Notes: generated from the sequence alone by a model not told the origin. A stretch of DNA of 64,000 nt from Bdellovibrio bacteriovorus HD100 (GCF_000196175.1 NC_005363.1:3596001-3660000), one strand, 5' to 3'; positions 3,507 to 8,650 are shown, counted from the stretch's first letter. Translations and numbers: made by a program.

Positions 3507-3533
3507 TTGATTTGTCCTAAATGACAAAATGAA

Positions 3534-3564
3534 AGAGGAGCCCCGCAAGGCTCCTCTTTTTTTA
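3534..3564 (+). terminator. Rho-independent terminator after icd
   Basis: A 9-base-pair stem AGAGGAGCC/GGCTCCTCT with a 6-base loop is followed by seven T residues. The T run touches the stop codon of the convergent gene at 3562. Confidence 0.93.
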
Positions 3565-6303
3565 TTTCTGCAGCGTCAGTCGGCGCACTTGTTTTTGCAC
3601 GCTTTCATCCACTGCCATCGGAGTCACCTCAAGATAGGCCTCTACGACTTTATCCTGAAGAACCATCAGGCGTTTCATGTTGCCGGTGTATTCAATTTCC
3701 CCGGCCGTGACTTCTTCGGCTGAAGGCATGCGGGTTTCATAAACGCCGTTTTTATCCTGCCAGGACAGAATCACATATTGCTCTTTCACGTTGCCAGCAG
3801 CGTCCTTCACATCCTTCACCTGCAGTTTTCCGTGGAAATCCAGACCCAGAGTGAATTCCAGCGCCTTGATATTCTTTGCGGCCAGAGCTGTCGCATAGTG
3901 AGTGCGAAGGCCTTCAACTGGAATGCGCTGGCGGATCACGAACTTCAACAGGTTTTTGCTGAACATGCTGTTGCGGCGAATCGCACACAGAAGTCCTTGT
4001 GTCGGATCATCGTGCTTGCTGCAATCCGTTTTCCCCGTGAGCTTCCCCCACCTGTCTGCAAGGCCTGGCAACAGAGGCTCCCCGACCATCAAAGCTTCCT
4101 GGGCGATGGCGGAATTCACCAGCGCCAGTGCGTTTTTCAGCCAGTATTGAGAGCGATTCCAGCTGATGTTATAGCGTTCTTTCAGAACTGATGGATCTCC
4201 TTTTAAGGCCAACCAATCAGCCTTGTCATAGGAAAGAATCGGATGCAGAACCAGCAGACTTTCCACGTAGCGCTCAAGGCCTTCGGTGGAAATCAGATTC
4301 TTCAGATCATAATTGCCGGCATCAAATGCCGGCCTCTCGGAGCGATTGGCATAACCCACCTTGCGCACCAAAGCTTCAACATTCGCCGCCGGCAGATGCA
4401 GACCCGTGGAATAAACCGGATATCTGATGATGTCCTGATCTTTCAACGCCTCCCACAGCGGGGCATACATATCCTCATAGAAGTTCGCAAGTTCATCCGC
4501 TTTCTGATTGGCCACCAGCTGAATTGGATTTTCCAAAGCTTCTGCTCTTCCAAAGGCGCGGGTCATGCTTTTCTGGCAGGTTTCAAAGGTGGATTCACCC
4601 GCGGAACGAACGAACTCCACCAGCGAGCCTTTGTTCTTCAGTGCATTTTTTAGAAGCTCTTTGGTGACATCACCCGTGGCAACACTTCCCAGACGATAGG
4701 ACTTTGTCGTGTCACCATTGAGGCTGACGCCGAACTGAACCATCTTTTCACAGGCAGCGATTTCGGTATGCAGAAGAATTCTTTGCGATTCAATTTGCTG
4801 AACAACCAGGGACTTGATCGAACGCAGTTCTGCCATCTGCTGAACGTGGTAGGACTCGACCATCACCGCAAGATCGCGGATCATGACCATGGTTTCCATC
4901 TGCATTTCAAGCATCTGCTTTTGCATGCGCTTGATTTCAGCCAAATCACGTTTAATCTCTTTCATGTCCGCGGCCATTTGCGCGTCAAGGCCACCACCGC
5001 CCAAAGCTGCGCCCAACAAGGCCGGACCGGGACCGCCAGCCATCATACTCATGGCACTGATCAATCCGCCGGAAGAATAAGCCTTCATCACCGCCTGTCC
5101 AATGTTGATTGCCGATGTCACCGTGCGAGCTGTGTCGATGGCTTTTCGAATGCCCGGATCCAGATTAACCCCCAGAGTGACTGCGATCTTTTCAGTCGCA
5201 TTCAAAATATTATCCAGGCGTCCCGCCGCAGAAGCGGCACTGCTGACGAAGATCTCTACATTTTTATTGATGGATTGCGGCTCACTCAAAGGCCCATTCC
5301 CAGAACCTGTTTGCAGGTTTCCGGTCAAAGCATCATTCATCAGACGCAGGGTTTCGACCCGGGTTGCCGGACGGAACTCAAGATCCCAACGGCCTTTTTT
5401 AATGTCATTACCAAGACCCTCCAGCGCCCCACGCGCGGCCTGCAAGTCTTGGTTCATTTGTTTGCGGTTGTCGTGAATGACCTGGACCAAAGAAGCCGCT
5501 TCACGCACTTTCGCGGCGACTTCGATCACCTCGCGCGCTTTGCGGATGAAATCCTGCACGCTTGGGTTTTTGACCAACTGATCCACAACGGCACCGGCAA
5601 CCAACCCGATCACCACTAATTTGGTGTTGTCATCATCGTGAAAGTTATAAGCCGACAGGATCTTGTCGTAGTTCTTCAGAATCTCAACAGTCTTTTCGAT
5701 GGCTTCCGCCCGAGGGGATCTTGCCGCTTGTGCCAGCTTCTTCTGATCTTCAGGACTGAGCTGCTGAATGTAGTGCGGCGCCAGTTCCTGCGCCACTTTC
5801 TGGGCACGGTCAGAGTAAGTCTTTAACAAGCTTTGCATCGCTTCGTTCTGGCGCTGAATCTGCAAAGTCAGATTAAAATCATCATGAATACCCTTGGCAC
5901 TGAAAGACATCTGATTGTAACGATAGTTCACTGTGTAGCTCAGAACCGCCGGATCATTTTTGAAGCCCAGAGTCTGCAGCATGTAAATGCTCTTGGCCAT
6001 CTGGCGGTCTTTTTCAAAAGCCGTAAGAACATTTGAGTCTGCAGGATAAGAGCGCAGATAAGATTCGCGCTGGGCTGAATTTAGATAAGGCACCAACAAA
6101 CGCGCCAGCGCCGGGTTGGGCTGGGCTCCGGCCGCCATCTGCTCCCAGAATGGGAAAAACGCCGCCGAACTTTCCGACTTGCCTTTCTCGTCTTGATTGT
6201 CACCCTGAGTACGGATGATCTCCCGCACGGTTTCTTTCTGTGGCGCACAGGCTGATAGAATCATCATCGCACTTACCGTTGTGGAAATTAGTTTTCTATT
6301 CAT
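3562..6303 (-). CDS. large alpha-helical lipoprotein, unknown function (913 aa)
   Basis: The chosen start ATG 6303 follows a GGAGG ribosome site and gives a signal peptide with lipobox LSAC (Cys19), so the protein is probably a membrane-anchored lipoprotein. It is mainly helical. It has a Gly-rich hydrophobic patch (about residues 425-455: GGLISAMSMMAGGPGPALLG), then a long charged coiled coil (about 460-540: KEIKRDLAEIKRMQKQMLEM). A C-terminal globular part follows. The start overlaps the stop of the collagen-like gene (ATGA, 6300-6303), so the two are translationally coupled. The hydrophobic hairpin beside a coiled coil recalls pore-forming or tether proteins, but this is speculation and I do not recognise the family. 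Confidence 0.85.
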   Translation of the reverse strand: MNRKLISTTVSAMMILSACAPQKETVREIIRTQGDNQDEKGKSESSAAFFPFWEQMAAGAQPNPALARLLVPYLNSAQRESYLRSYPADSNVLTAFEKDRQMAKSIYMLQTLGFKNDPAVLSYTVNYRYNQMSFSAKGIHDDFNLTLQIQRQNEAMQSLLKTYSDRAQKVAQELAPHYIQQLSPEDQKKLAQAARSPRAEAIEKTVEILKNYDKILSAYNFHDDDNTKLVVIGLVAGAVVDQLVKNPSVQDFIRKAREVIEVAAKVREAASLVQVIHDNRKQMNQDLQAARGALEGLGNDIKKGRWDLEFRPATRVETLRLMNDALTGNLQTGSGNGPLSEPQSINKNVEIFVSSAASAAGRLDNILNATEKIAVTLGVNLDPGIRKAIDTARTVTSAINIGQAVMKAYSSGGLISAMSMMAGGPGPALLGAALGGGGLDAQMAADMKEIKRDLAEIKRMQKQMLEMQMETMVMIRDLAVMVESYHVQQMAELRSIKSLVVQQIESQRILLHTEIAACEKMVQFGVSLNGDTTKSYRLGSVATGDVTKELLKNALKNKGSLVEFVRSAGESTFETCQKSMTRAFGRAEALENPIQLVANQKADELANFYEDMYAPLWEALKDQDIIRYPVYSTGLHLPAANVEALVRKVGYANRSERPAFDAGNYDLKNLISTEGLERYVESLLVLHPILSYDKADWLALKGDPSVLKERYNISWNRSQYWLKNALALVNSAIAQEALMVGEPLLPGLADRWGKLTGKTDCSKHDDPTQGLLCAIRRNSMFSKNLLKFVIRQRIPVEGLRTHYATALAAKNIKALEFTLGLDFHGKLQVKDVKDAAGNVKEQYVILSWQDKNGVYETRMPSAEEVTAGEIEYTGNMKRLMVLQDKVVEAYLEVTPMAVDESVQKQVRRLTLQK

Positions 6304-7517
6304 TGCACACCTCCGACATTTTGTTCGCGAGTCACACAGGAAGTTCCGCTGTCCAACAAGGTCACACACAACTCACCCAAAGCGCCCACTGCGCCGGGCT
6401 TGCCTTGAGCACCCACGGGGCCTTCTTGACCATTGGCACCAGCTTTTGCCTTTTTGCACATACGAGCGGGAGCTCCGGCATCACCACCGGCTCCGCCTGG
6501 CTGACCTTTGCCTCCAGGGCCACCAACTCCAGGCAATCCAGGAAAGAACAAAGCTTGATATCTGAAGAGTTTGGCTTTCTTCACGGTTAGATAAAGCGAG
6601 CCGGAGGAACCTCCCGGGAAGCCATCAAAGCCAGTGCCGCCCTGAACACCGTTCGTACCCGTCGCACCATCCGTCGGCTGGGAGATACAGATCGGACGAT
6701 CGCCCCCTTCACGGCGGGGACCGACAGCAATAAAGTCAAATTCACCTGGGCGACCCGCAGCCGCTTTCGCTGGAGGAACCTGAGTTGCATCCACGCCTTT
6801 TTCACCCTGAGCTCCGGGATGACCGTGCATTTGAAACACAAAAGTGCCGTTTGCAAATCCGGCATTCACAATCAGTCGACCGCCCCCTTTGCCAGGAGCC
6901 TTGTAAGTCACAGAGTGTTCAAGTTCTTGTTCATCAAAAGTCTTGATACGCGCCACAAGGTCGCTGTGAATTTCTTCGGCATCAATTTGCAGATCACGCC
7001 CTTCAGTTATTAAAGAACCTTCAGATCCGAAGGACAGCTTGCCCAACATCAGTCGGTTTGAATCAAACTGATAGTCTGAGATTCTGACTTGTTCCTTGAT
7101 TTCAAGATCTTTCAGCAAGCGCACTTCATGCACCAGCTGCCCGCGATTTGTTTGAATAACGTATTTATAATGCCAAGGACGAAGATTTGATTTCTGATTC
7201 GTCGGGCGATCGATCACATCCGCCCCCTGAACAGGAACATCCACTGAATAACCCGTATGCATATCCAGTCTTTTAACGGAATCAATACCAAAGCTGCTGT
7301 TGTCTTTGACGATCTTCACCAGCAATGCTGTCCCGCCAGTTTCACGCTCTGCCGTCACCGAAACACTGACGTCAGGATCCGCATCCGACTTTGGATCCGG
7401 TATCTGCGGAGTTTCACCCTGAACTGTGCCTTGGGGGGCTTTTTGAGAGTCCGACCCTGGCTGGCAGCCCGCCAGAAACAGAACCATGGGAACGATCAAG
7501 AAATAATGTGGCTTCAT
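6300..7517 (-). CDS. collagen-like Gly-X-Y repeat lipoprotein
   Basis: This is a 405-residue lipoprotein with lipobox FLAGC (Cys18) and a good AAGGAGA site before ATG 7517. Residues about 60-220 look beta-rich. From about 230 the sequence turns into broken Gly-X-Y triplets such as GHPGAQGEKG, GFDGFPGGSSG, GLPGVGGPGGKGQPGGAGGD and GANGQEGPVGAQGKPGAVG, as in bacterial collagen-like proteins. These are interrupted by short segments carrying cysteines (RPICIS, ARMCKK, ELCVTLLDSGTSC). It would sit on the cell envelope and perhaps project outwards. It overlaps the 913-aa lipoprotein gene by ATGA, so the two products probably act together. The exact role is unknown. Confidence 0.85.
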   Translation of the reverse strand: MKPHYFLIVPMVLFLAGCQPGSDSQKAPQGTVQGETPQIPDPKSDADPDVSVSVTAERETGGTALLVKIVKDNSSFGIDSVKRLDMHTGYSVDVPVQGADVIDRPTNQKSNLRPWHYKYVIQTNRGQLVHEVRLLKDLEIKEQVRISDYQFDSNRLMLGKLSFGSEGSLITEGRDLQIDAEEIHSDLVARIKTFDEQELEHSVTYKAPGKGGGRLIVNAGFANGTFVFQMHGHPGAQGEKGVDATQVPPAKAAAGRPGEFDFIAVGPRREGGDRPICISQPTDGATGTNGVQGGTGFDGFPGGSSGSLYLTVKKAKLFRYQALFFPGLPGVGGPGGKGQPGGAGGDAGAPARMCKKAKAGANGQEGPVGAQGKPGAVGALGELCVTLLDSGTSCVTREQNVGGVQ

Positions 7518-7585: not shown

Positions 7586-7615
7586 AAATTAAAACGCCGA
7601 AGACTTGCCTCGGCG
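7586..7615 (-). terminator. terminator after the M15-like lipoprotein gene
   Basis: Read on the minus strand, CGCCGA and TCGGCG form a hairpin followed by TTTTAATTT. It separates the M15-like gene from the collagen-like operon. Confidence 0.7.
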
Positions 7616-7665: not shown

Positions 7666-8421
7666 TTAGTTGCAGCTTTTGCCCCAGGTGTTGGCGGTTC
7701 TGTCACCCACACCGATATGCAAAGAGGCGCTGCCATAGTGACCAATCGCACGCAGGCGCTTGGCTTTGCGCATTTTACAAAGTTCACGGAAGGCACGGTC
7801 GGCTTCACTGTTGCTGGAAAAACGAACGTCGATGGAAGTTCCATACGGGTGACGGCCGGCAGCCCCGCCCACGTTTTTGTTGTAGGGTTCAGGTCTCCAC
7901 CAGTTGTAGATCTGGCTGATCTTGATCCCTTTGGCGGAAAGATCCTGAAGGATGCGAACGCCCTCGATAGGGTACTTCCAGGTGCCTTCAACCGGGTGAA
8001 TCAGATTGTGCGCCTGAGATGAACCATAGGTGCACTTGAAAGTGTTGGAGCTGCGCGGGTTCGGACGAACAAGCTCATCACACCAGGAGGATCCGTTTGT
8101 TTCTTTGGAGCACTTCTGCAGAAACTCTTCTTTTTTGGACAGACCCAGGTTCACTTGTTTCTTTTGTGATGTTGAAGCTTTCACACAACCCAGCGCCTGA
8201 ATATCTTCACTGATGGCTTCACTAATGTCGTTGTGAATGTGATCGGCAATATCGTGACTGTCTTCGGCCGTGGTGTCTGTTGGGTCGGTGATATTCTGGG
8301 AATCATTTTGTTCTGAAGAAGTGCTGGAATAGTTCTGGAAGTCTTCCGATCCCCCCTGGCATCCGATAAGAGGCAAGCCCAGAGCGACGATCATGGCGAT
8401 AGCGTGATTCTTAATTTTCAT
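7666..8421 (-). CDS. lipoprotein with M15-type D,D-peptidase-like domain
   Basis: ATG 8421 follows AAGGAGAT and begins a signal peptide with lipobox LIGC (Cys21); the total length is 251 residues. Residues about 25-90 are a Ser/Thr/Asp-rich linker. The C-terminal 110 residues contain WRPEPYNKNVGGAAGRHPYG then TSIDVRF, which fits the His-x-x-Gly-x-x-x-Asp zinc motif of M15 carboxypeptidases (VanY/DacA-like). A final SASLHIGVGD resembles the last His of the site. It may cut peptide cross-links in self or prey peptidoglycan. The usual HxH is reduced to a single His here, so activity is uncertain. Confidence 0.75.
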   Translation of the reverse strand: MKIKNHAIAMIVALGLPLIGCQGGSEDFQNYSSTSSEQNDSQNITDPTDTTAEDSHDIADHIHNDISEAISEDIQALGCVKASTSQKKQVNLGLSKKEEFLQKCSKETNGSSWCDELVRPNPRSSNTFKCTYGSSQAHNLIHPVEGTWKYPIEGVRILQDLSAKGIKISQIYNWWRPEPYNKNVGGAAGRHPYGTSIDVRFSSNSEADRAFRELCKMRKAKRLRAIGHYGSASLHIGVGDRTANTWGKSCN

Positions 8422-8650
8422 CTGATCTCCTTCATTGCGTTTTCGCAAGGAAGTGTCAGCCTACAATGCTTACATATTTTTCATAGACAGGACCCCCACC
8501 TTCTGGAGGAAGGGGCAGTAAAAAGCGAGGGAGTTTTAGGTCACGAATGCGGATTCAGAGAATACTCTAAAAGCAGATTTGTCTTTTAGCACTGGACCCA
8601 CCATTCCAAGACCAAAAGAAGTATAAATGATCAAACACCAAGGAGTTTTC

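Follow-up and report, generated by a model that had tools for sequence, protein, structure and literature searches.

In the gp38 tip proteins of phages S16 and PP01, glycine-rich motifs form polyglycine-II (PGII) helices parted by hypervariable loops that are proposed to be receptor-binding, and the motifs are loop extensions growing out of a β-helix (PMC6851490, PMC12892980). In the springtail antifreeze proteins, which are polyproline-II (PPII) bundles, helix length is invariant (PMC10235112). Few solved structures of PGII bundles have been reported so far; apart from phage tips and springtail antifreeze proteins there are only a handful. The streptococcal collagen-like adhesins Scl1 and Scl2 have long uninterrupted tracts, are trimeric, and are anchored to the wall. 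Here, we analyzed two adjacent lipoprotein genes in a 64,000-nucleotide stretch (the window, within which positions are counted) of the Bdellovibrio bacteriovorus HD100 genome, a single contig of 3,782,950 bases (GCF_000196175.1, NC_005363.1:3596001-3660000). The first encodes a protein with glycine tracts that is probably a compact PGII-type bundle, and the second encodes a large helical protein; their conservation as a co-inherited pair is well supported.

Predator surface recognition proteins from the same organism include the MAT fibres, which are trimeric β-prism fibres, and the MIDAS proteins, which carry vWA domains and whose adhesin Bd0875 has a lipobox (PMC10769870, PMC11003981). Collagen-like proteins are not mentioned in the MAT-fibre or MIDAS papers (PMC10769870, PMC11003981), and no described pairing of lipoproteins of the present kind was found in the open-access literature for the words searched.

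Both genes lie on the minus strand between positions 3562 and 7517. The glycine-tract protein (6300-7517, 405 residues, MKPHYFLIVPMVLFLAGC) has the lipobox LAGC with lipid Cys18, and the helical protein (3562-6303, 913 residues, MNRKLISTTVSAMMILSAC) has the lipobox LSAC with lipid Cys19. The first-pass annotation of this DNA had described two lipoproteins joined by an ATGA stop/start overlap, and both points were borne out, with the overlap at 6300-6303 on the minus strand (the sequence reads CA-ATGA). The lipid cysteine is invariant in the alignment of the glycine-tract protein and, for the helical protein, in its aligned paired homologs, and the +2 residue in HD100 is not Asp in either lipoprotein.

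Glycine tracts of the 405-residue lipoprotein

Gly-X-Y triplets are found in four tracts, at residues 232-243 (4 triplets), 284-304 (7), 327-338 (4), and 360-383 (8). The interrupted periodicity noted at first pass is real: the total number of triplets was reached by 0 of 20,000 shuffles, both when the entire protein and when the glycine domain alone was shuffled, and the longest tract was matched by 2 of 20,000 and 17 of 20,000 shuffles, respectively. Cysteines are also present as described; rather than being scattered, they fall into ordered columns across homologs, at residues 277 (14 of 18), 354 (19 of 20), and 384 (11 of 20).

The fold was predicted with AlphaFold as a single chain, using 13 homologs. 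The model consists of a disordered linker, an Fn3/Ig-like domain, and a domain of β strands and glycine tracts. The putative stalk domain (residues 48-136; 7110-7376) gave VIA-align Z values of about 7-10 against Fn3/Ig-type β-sandwich domains, a common arrangement. It is followed by a predicted β-rich scaffold (residues 137-231; 6825-7109), whose final strand comprises the 18 residues 214-231. Glycine tract 1 spans residues 232-243 (6789-6824). Tract 2, of the Gly-X-Y type (residues 284-306; 6600-6668), is joined by a strand (residues 307-325; 6543-6599) to tract 3, which is of the Gly-Gly-X type (residues 326-347; 6477-6542), and tract 4 spans residues 360-380 (6378-6440); all of these features are on the minus strand. 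The predicted local distance difference test (pLDDT) score of this monomer was about 93-97 over most of residues 220-390, the loop near 260-280 excepted.

Comparison of 20 homologs, including unpaired ones, showed that the lengths of these elements are nearly fixed: 23-24 residues for tract 2, 18-19 for the joining strand, 22-25 for tract 3, and 21 for tract 4. The loops between the tracts vary from 10 to 64 residues. In tracts 2 and 4, every third residue is a conserved glycine. Tract 3 alone conserves two glycines per triplet, the pattern to be expected of a buried helix that has neighbours packed against two of its sides. Length-locked tracts, variable loops, and the Gly-Gly-X pattern together match published descriptions of PGII bundles. 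We therefore consider that the protein is probably a compact single-chain bundle of PGII-type helices rather than a collagen rope, the PGII geometry of the tracts being what sequence and model would imply.

The first-pass annotation had instead called the protein collagen-like, and from its periodicity and the conserved pairing described below one might picture a trimeric collagen-like fibre to which the long lipoprotein is bound in stoichiometric amounts. This picture is highly improbable. The Pfam Collagen model scored 9.6 bits, far short of its cut-off of 27.2, and in place of a long uninterrupted proline-rich Gly-X-Y stretch the protein has tracts of 4-8 triplets, length-locked and interleaved with strands, in which proline makes up 9% of X and 12% of Y positions and glycine itself 19% of X. 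Tract 3 is Gly-Gly-X, and since the protein is modeled with confidence as a monomer, a homotrimer would not be needed. Collagen identity is accordingly not supported.

Searches with sequence profiles gave little further placement. The profiles of the two proteins retrieved only collagen peptides and noise from the PDB sequences, residues 222-382 of the glycine-tract protein matched a phage tail-fibre family weakly (E 0.0018), and scans of both proteins of the pair against Pfam, NCBIfam, PHROGs, and PADLOC returned nothing above cut-off. Neither protein matched phage records by tblastn, which leaves a phage origin without support.

Conservation and co-inheritance of the pair

Loss of adjacency in relatives had been named beforehand as an outcome that would count against the pair. 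In the close clade, every locus that could be read upstream (23 of 23, in 21 genomes of Bdellovibrio, one sister genus, and Bacteriovoracaceae) has a glycine-tract lipoprotein gene directly before the helical gene, and the genes flanking the pair vary from group to group of genomes. The two proteins also have congruent histories: of 15 splits, 12 are found in both trees (mean 0.23 and maximum 4 in shuffles), and their pairwise distances correlate with r=0.90, part of which is accounted for by shared species history. Moreover, one genome (G017) holds three paralogous pairs whose members are placed matchingly in both trees. The glycine-bundle protein evolves faster than its helical partner. Taken together, sequence comparisons support well a conserved, co-inherited lipoprotein pair in functional partnership, and a physical complex between the two may be inferred. 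In one of the 23 loci (L028), an IS3-like insertion (5262-6466) parts the two genes and also truncates the glycine-bundle gene.

The stoichiometry that had been deduced from the overlap does not follow. Gene order is kept in relatives and the ATGA overlap itself is not, the spacing ranging from -4 to +23 bp. In addition, the helical gene is equipped with a strong ribosome-binding site of its own (GGAGGTGTGCAATG), a Shine-Dalgarno GGAGGT a few bases 5' of its start, so translational coupling need not mean fixed stoichiometry.

The helical protein was found in 11 of 60 relatives searched, and a profile search of 369 genomes from the phylum recovered it in 36. The same kind of search recovered the glycine-bundle protein in 98 of 369, mostly without a helical partner. 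A scan of genome contigs with a single sequence gave no match; a profile scan, which used one peptide pattern, retrieved 11 loci from records titled Bdellovibrio, Bacteriovorax, Bacteriovoracaceae, or "Proteobacteria bacterium", a count that is no proof of absence elsewhere.

Some glycine-bundle genes have other large partners. At L107 (7577-10231), an 884-residue protein overlaps the glycine-bundle gene by ATGA and contains a 50-residue uncharged hydrophobic stretch; it matches LeoBC of PADLOC weakly (E 7e-5) and is unrelated to the helical family. At L095, the partner is a 745-residue lipoprotein that is possibly a distant relative of the helical family, judged from a profile probability of 80% over 54 columns only. 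Large proteins beside some other loci (L061, L068, L071, L075, and L099) were considered as relatives of the helical protein and ruled out by profile comparison.

Several further arrangements were observed around this family. A different two-gene set, encoding an exported protein of about 200 residues and then one of about 800, lies near several pairs (L061 9759-12730, L068 8545-11606, and L071 4623-7908); where scanned, it gave no family matches, and it is not kin to the helical protein. At L096, L101, and L104, unpaired glycine-bundle lipoprotein genes head conjugation-like operons, in which a small lipoprotein, a 96-residue membrane protein, and a large VirB4/TraC-like ATPase were recognized by eye. 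The HD100 genome itself holds a second, unpaired glycine-bundle lipoprotein gene (L031 6130-7257; genome about 541,400-542,250), which has counterparts in the genomes of several other Bdellovibrio; translation of this gene probably begins at the internal MKYGLMGMLVVILVSTAGC.

In HD100, the pair is likely a separate two-gene unit, since a hairpin at 7595-7615 (CGCCGA-loop-TCGGCG, followed by a T-rich run on the minus strand) probably terminates the gene upstream of it. This hairpin was seen by eye and is absent from the hairpin-scan list. On the other side, the scan found a strong hairpin at 3531-3560 that could serve as terminator for both the pair and the convergent icd-like gene. Directly upstream of the pair lies another lipoprotein gene (7666-8448, minus strand), VanY/M15-type peptidase-like by eye, for which no Pfam match at E 0.01 was found; among relatives, only the two closest keep it beside the pair.

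The helical lipoprotein and possible roles of the pair

The sequence of the 913-residue protein places it in an unnamed family of large helical lipoproteins with some 30 members, with the signature IAQExLxxGExLL...C...C..xxNxLxxKNLL and with the lipid Cys, Cys518, Cys576, Cys761, and Cys773 invariant. The AlphaFold model is good in the C-terminal half only, which contains the helical core (residues 510-893; 3625-4776, minus strand); this core carries the signature, and its four invariant cysteines could form two disulphides. The N-terminal half is predicted to consist of long helices on either side of a Gly/Ala-rich hydrophobic patch. This patch and the long helix after it had been pointed out at first pass, and both were recovered. 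The patch (residues 408-439; 4987-5082, minus strand) is a run of 32 residues that contains no D, E, K, or R and is 50% Gly+Ala, and the coiled-coil-like helix (residues 441-510; 4774-4983, minus strand) was modeled with low to middling pLDDT. Within a single sequence the patch is only mildly unusual, arising in 3% of shuffles; across the family, nearly all of about 30 homologs have an uncharged Gly/Ala-rich run at the equivalent position, and a distant clade has a second uncharged stretch near residues 110-190. Foldseek and VIA-align gave no match to the model above the noise expected for helical models and no known fold. Weak isolated matches to family models among homologs, for example to an HSA domain in two of them, were taken as coiled-coil artefacts.

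These features raise the question of membrane attack, in which the helical lipoprotein would resemble an α-helical pore-former whose hidden hydrophobic hairpin enters the membrane of a target after binding by the glycine-bundle partner. ClyA-type toxins have a hydrophobic head lying between two long helices (PMC6602965), which is what the conserved patch and the second stretch of the distant clade recall, and the unrelated L107 partner has its own long uncharged stretch. However, sequence and fold searches gave no significant match to a pore-forming toxin: AhlB, SmhB, and colicin Ia reached Z values of 6-8.4, within the noise for helical models, and were counted neither way. The helical protein is moreover lipid-anchored rather than soluble, and much larger. 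We regard this account as unlikely.

The reading that we favor, at somewhat less than even confidence, is that of a two-lipoprotein unit in which a lipid-anchored glycine-bundle recognition protein and the helical partner act together at the outer membrane, the location inferred for both. The Fn3-like stalk and β scaffold would carry the PGII bundle on its lipid anchor, and the variable-length loops between length-locked helices would make up the head. The head would then recognize a ligand, which could be the envelope of prey or of a neighbour, or a glycan. The helical partner, likewise lipid-anchored, would present a Gly/Ala-rich hydrophobic tip between long helices above a conserved core, and would transmit or use the contact made by the head, perhaps by touching a membrane. 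It is plausible that the two proteins lie at the cell surface and serve in prey attachment; that the head recognizes the surface of prey or of a neighbour, and that the partner contacts a membrane, are guesses.

Several observations weigh against this favored reading. Fold searches of the PDB found no solved structure that spans the glycine domain. In the distant clade (L029, L030, L074-L078, and others), the upstream slot is occupied by an exported protein of 130-208 residues with a coiled-coil-like end. The glycine-bundle family is far more widespread than its partner, and therefore its basic role needs no helical partner. The pair is also patchy, as the helical protein is present in only about half of the genomes searched within the genus Bdellovibrio; thus, it is not essential to predation in general. 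Finally, no published expression, localisation, or mutant results for the pair were found.

Alternatively, both lipoproteins may face the periplasm or the inner leaflet of the outer membrane and scaffold the envelope, with no part in cell recognition. Surface exposure does not follow from lipoprotein signals alone, the helical protein is a large one with long predicted helices, and the HD100 pair lies among icd-, lipocalin-, and DUF4382-type genes with no evident predation cluster. On the other hand, a gene pair that is patchy within a single genus and differs in location looks more like an accessory surface trait, and the variable loops and faster evolution of the glycine-bundle protein also speak against a scaffold. 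This is a lesser possibility than joint action at the outer membrane.

If the favored reading is right, PGII bundles would be a common cell-surface fold in Bdellovibrio-like bacteria, natural loop variation could encode partner specificity, the pair would give a first clue to the unnamed helical family, and the "collagen" label on such glycine-tract proteins would be one that can lead astray. A bolder version, that a widespread predator family of PGII lipoproteins and a new membrane-active family of large helical proteins form an undescribed device for surface recognition plus attack, is doubtful. Redundancy among Bdellovibrio recognition proteins means that single deletions may show little.

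Comparison with known systems

Among collagen-like proteins, Scl1 and Scl2 and the Pfam Collagen family share Gly-X-Y periodicity with the glycine-tract protein and match it weakly below threshold; unlike in Scl1 and Scl2, its tracts are short and interleaved with strands. The pair comes from the same organism as the MAT fibres and the MIDAS adhesin Bd0875 and is unrelated to them in design. Like the ClyA-type α pore-forming toxins (AhlABC, SmhABC), the helical partner has a hydrophobic stretch, placed between long helices by a model that is of low confidence there; unlike them, it has a large C-terminal core.

The springtail (snow flea) antifreeze proteins offer a closer likeness, as Gly-rich PPII helical bundles with GGX repeats and disulphides in addition to their constant helix length (PMC10235112), although they are small, free arthropod ice-binders with neither β scaffold nor lipid anchor. 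Homology to gp38 was not established by sequence or fold searches. In architecture, the S16/PP01 gp38 tip and the predicted glycine-tract protein both combine short Gly-rich helices, variable loops that part them, and β strands within one chain. They differ in that gp38 has ten motifs and an N-terminal domain for attachment to the trimeric gp37 fibre, whereas the Bdellovibrio protein has about four longer tracts and begins with a lipoprotein signal and an Fn3-like domain, which would place a comparable bundle on a lipid anchor.

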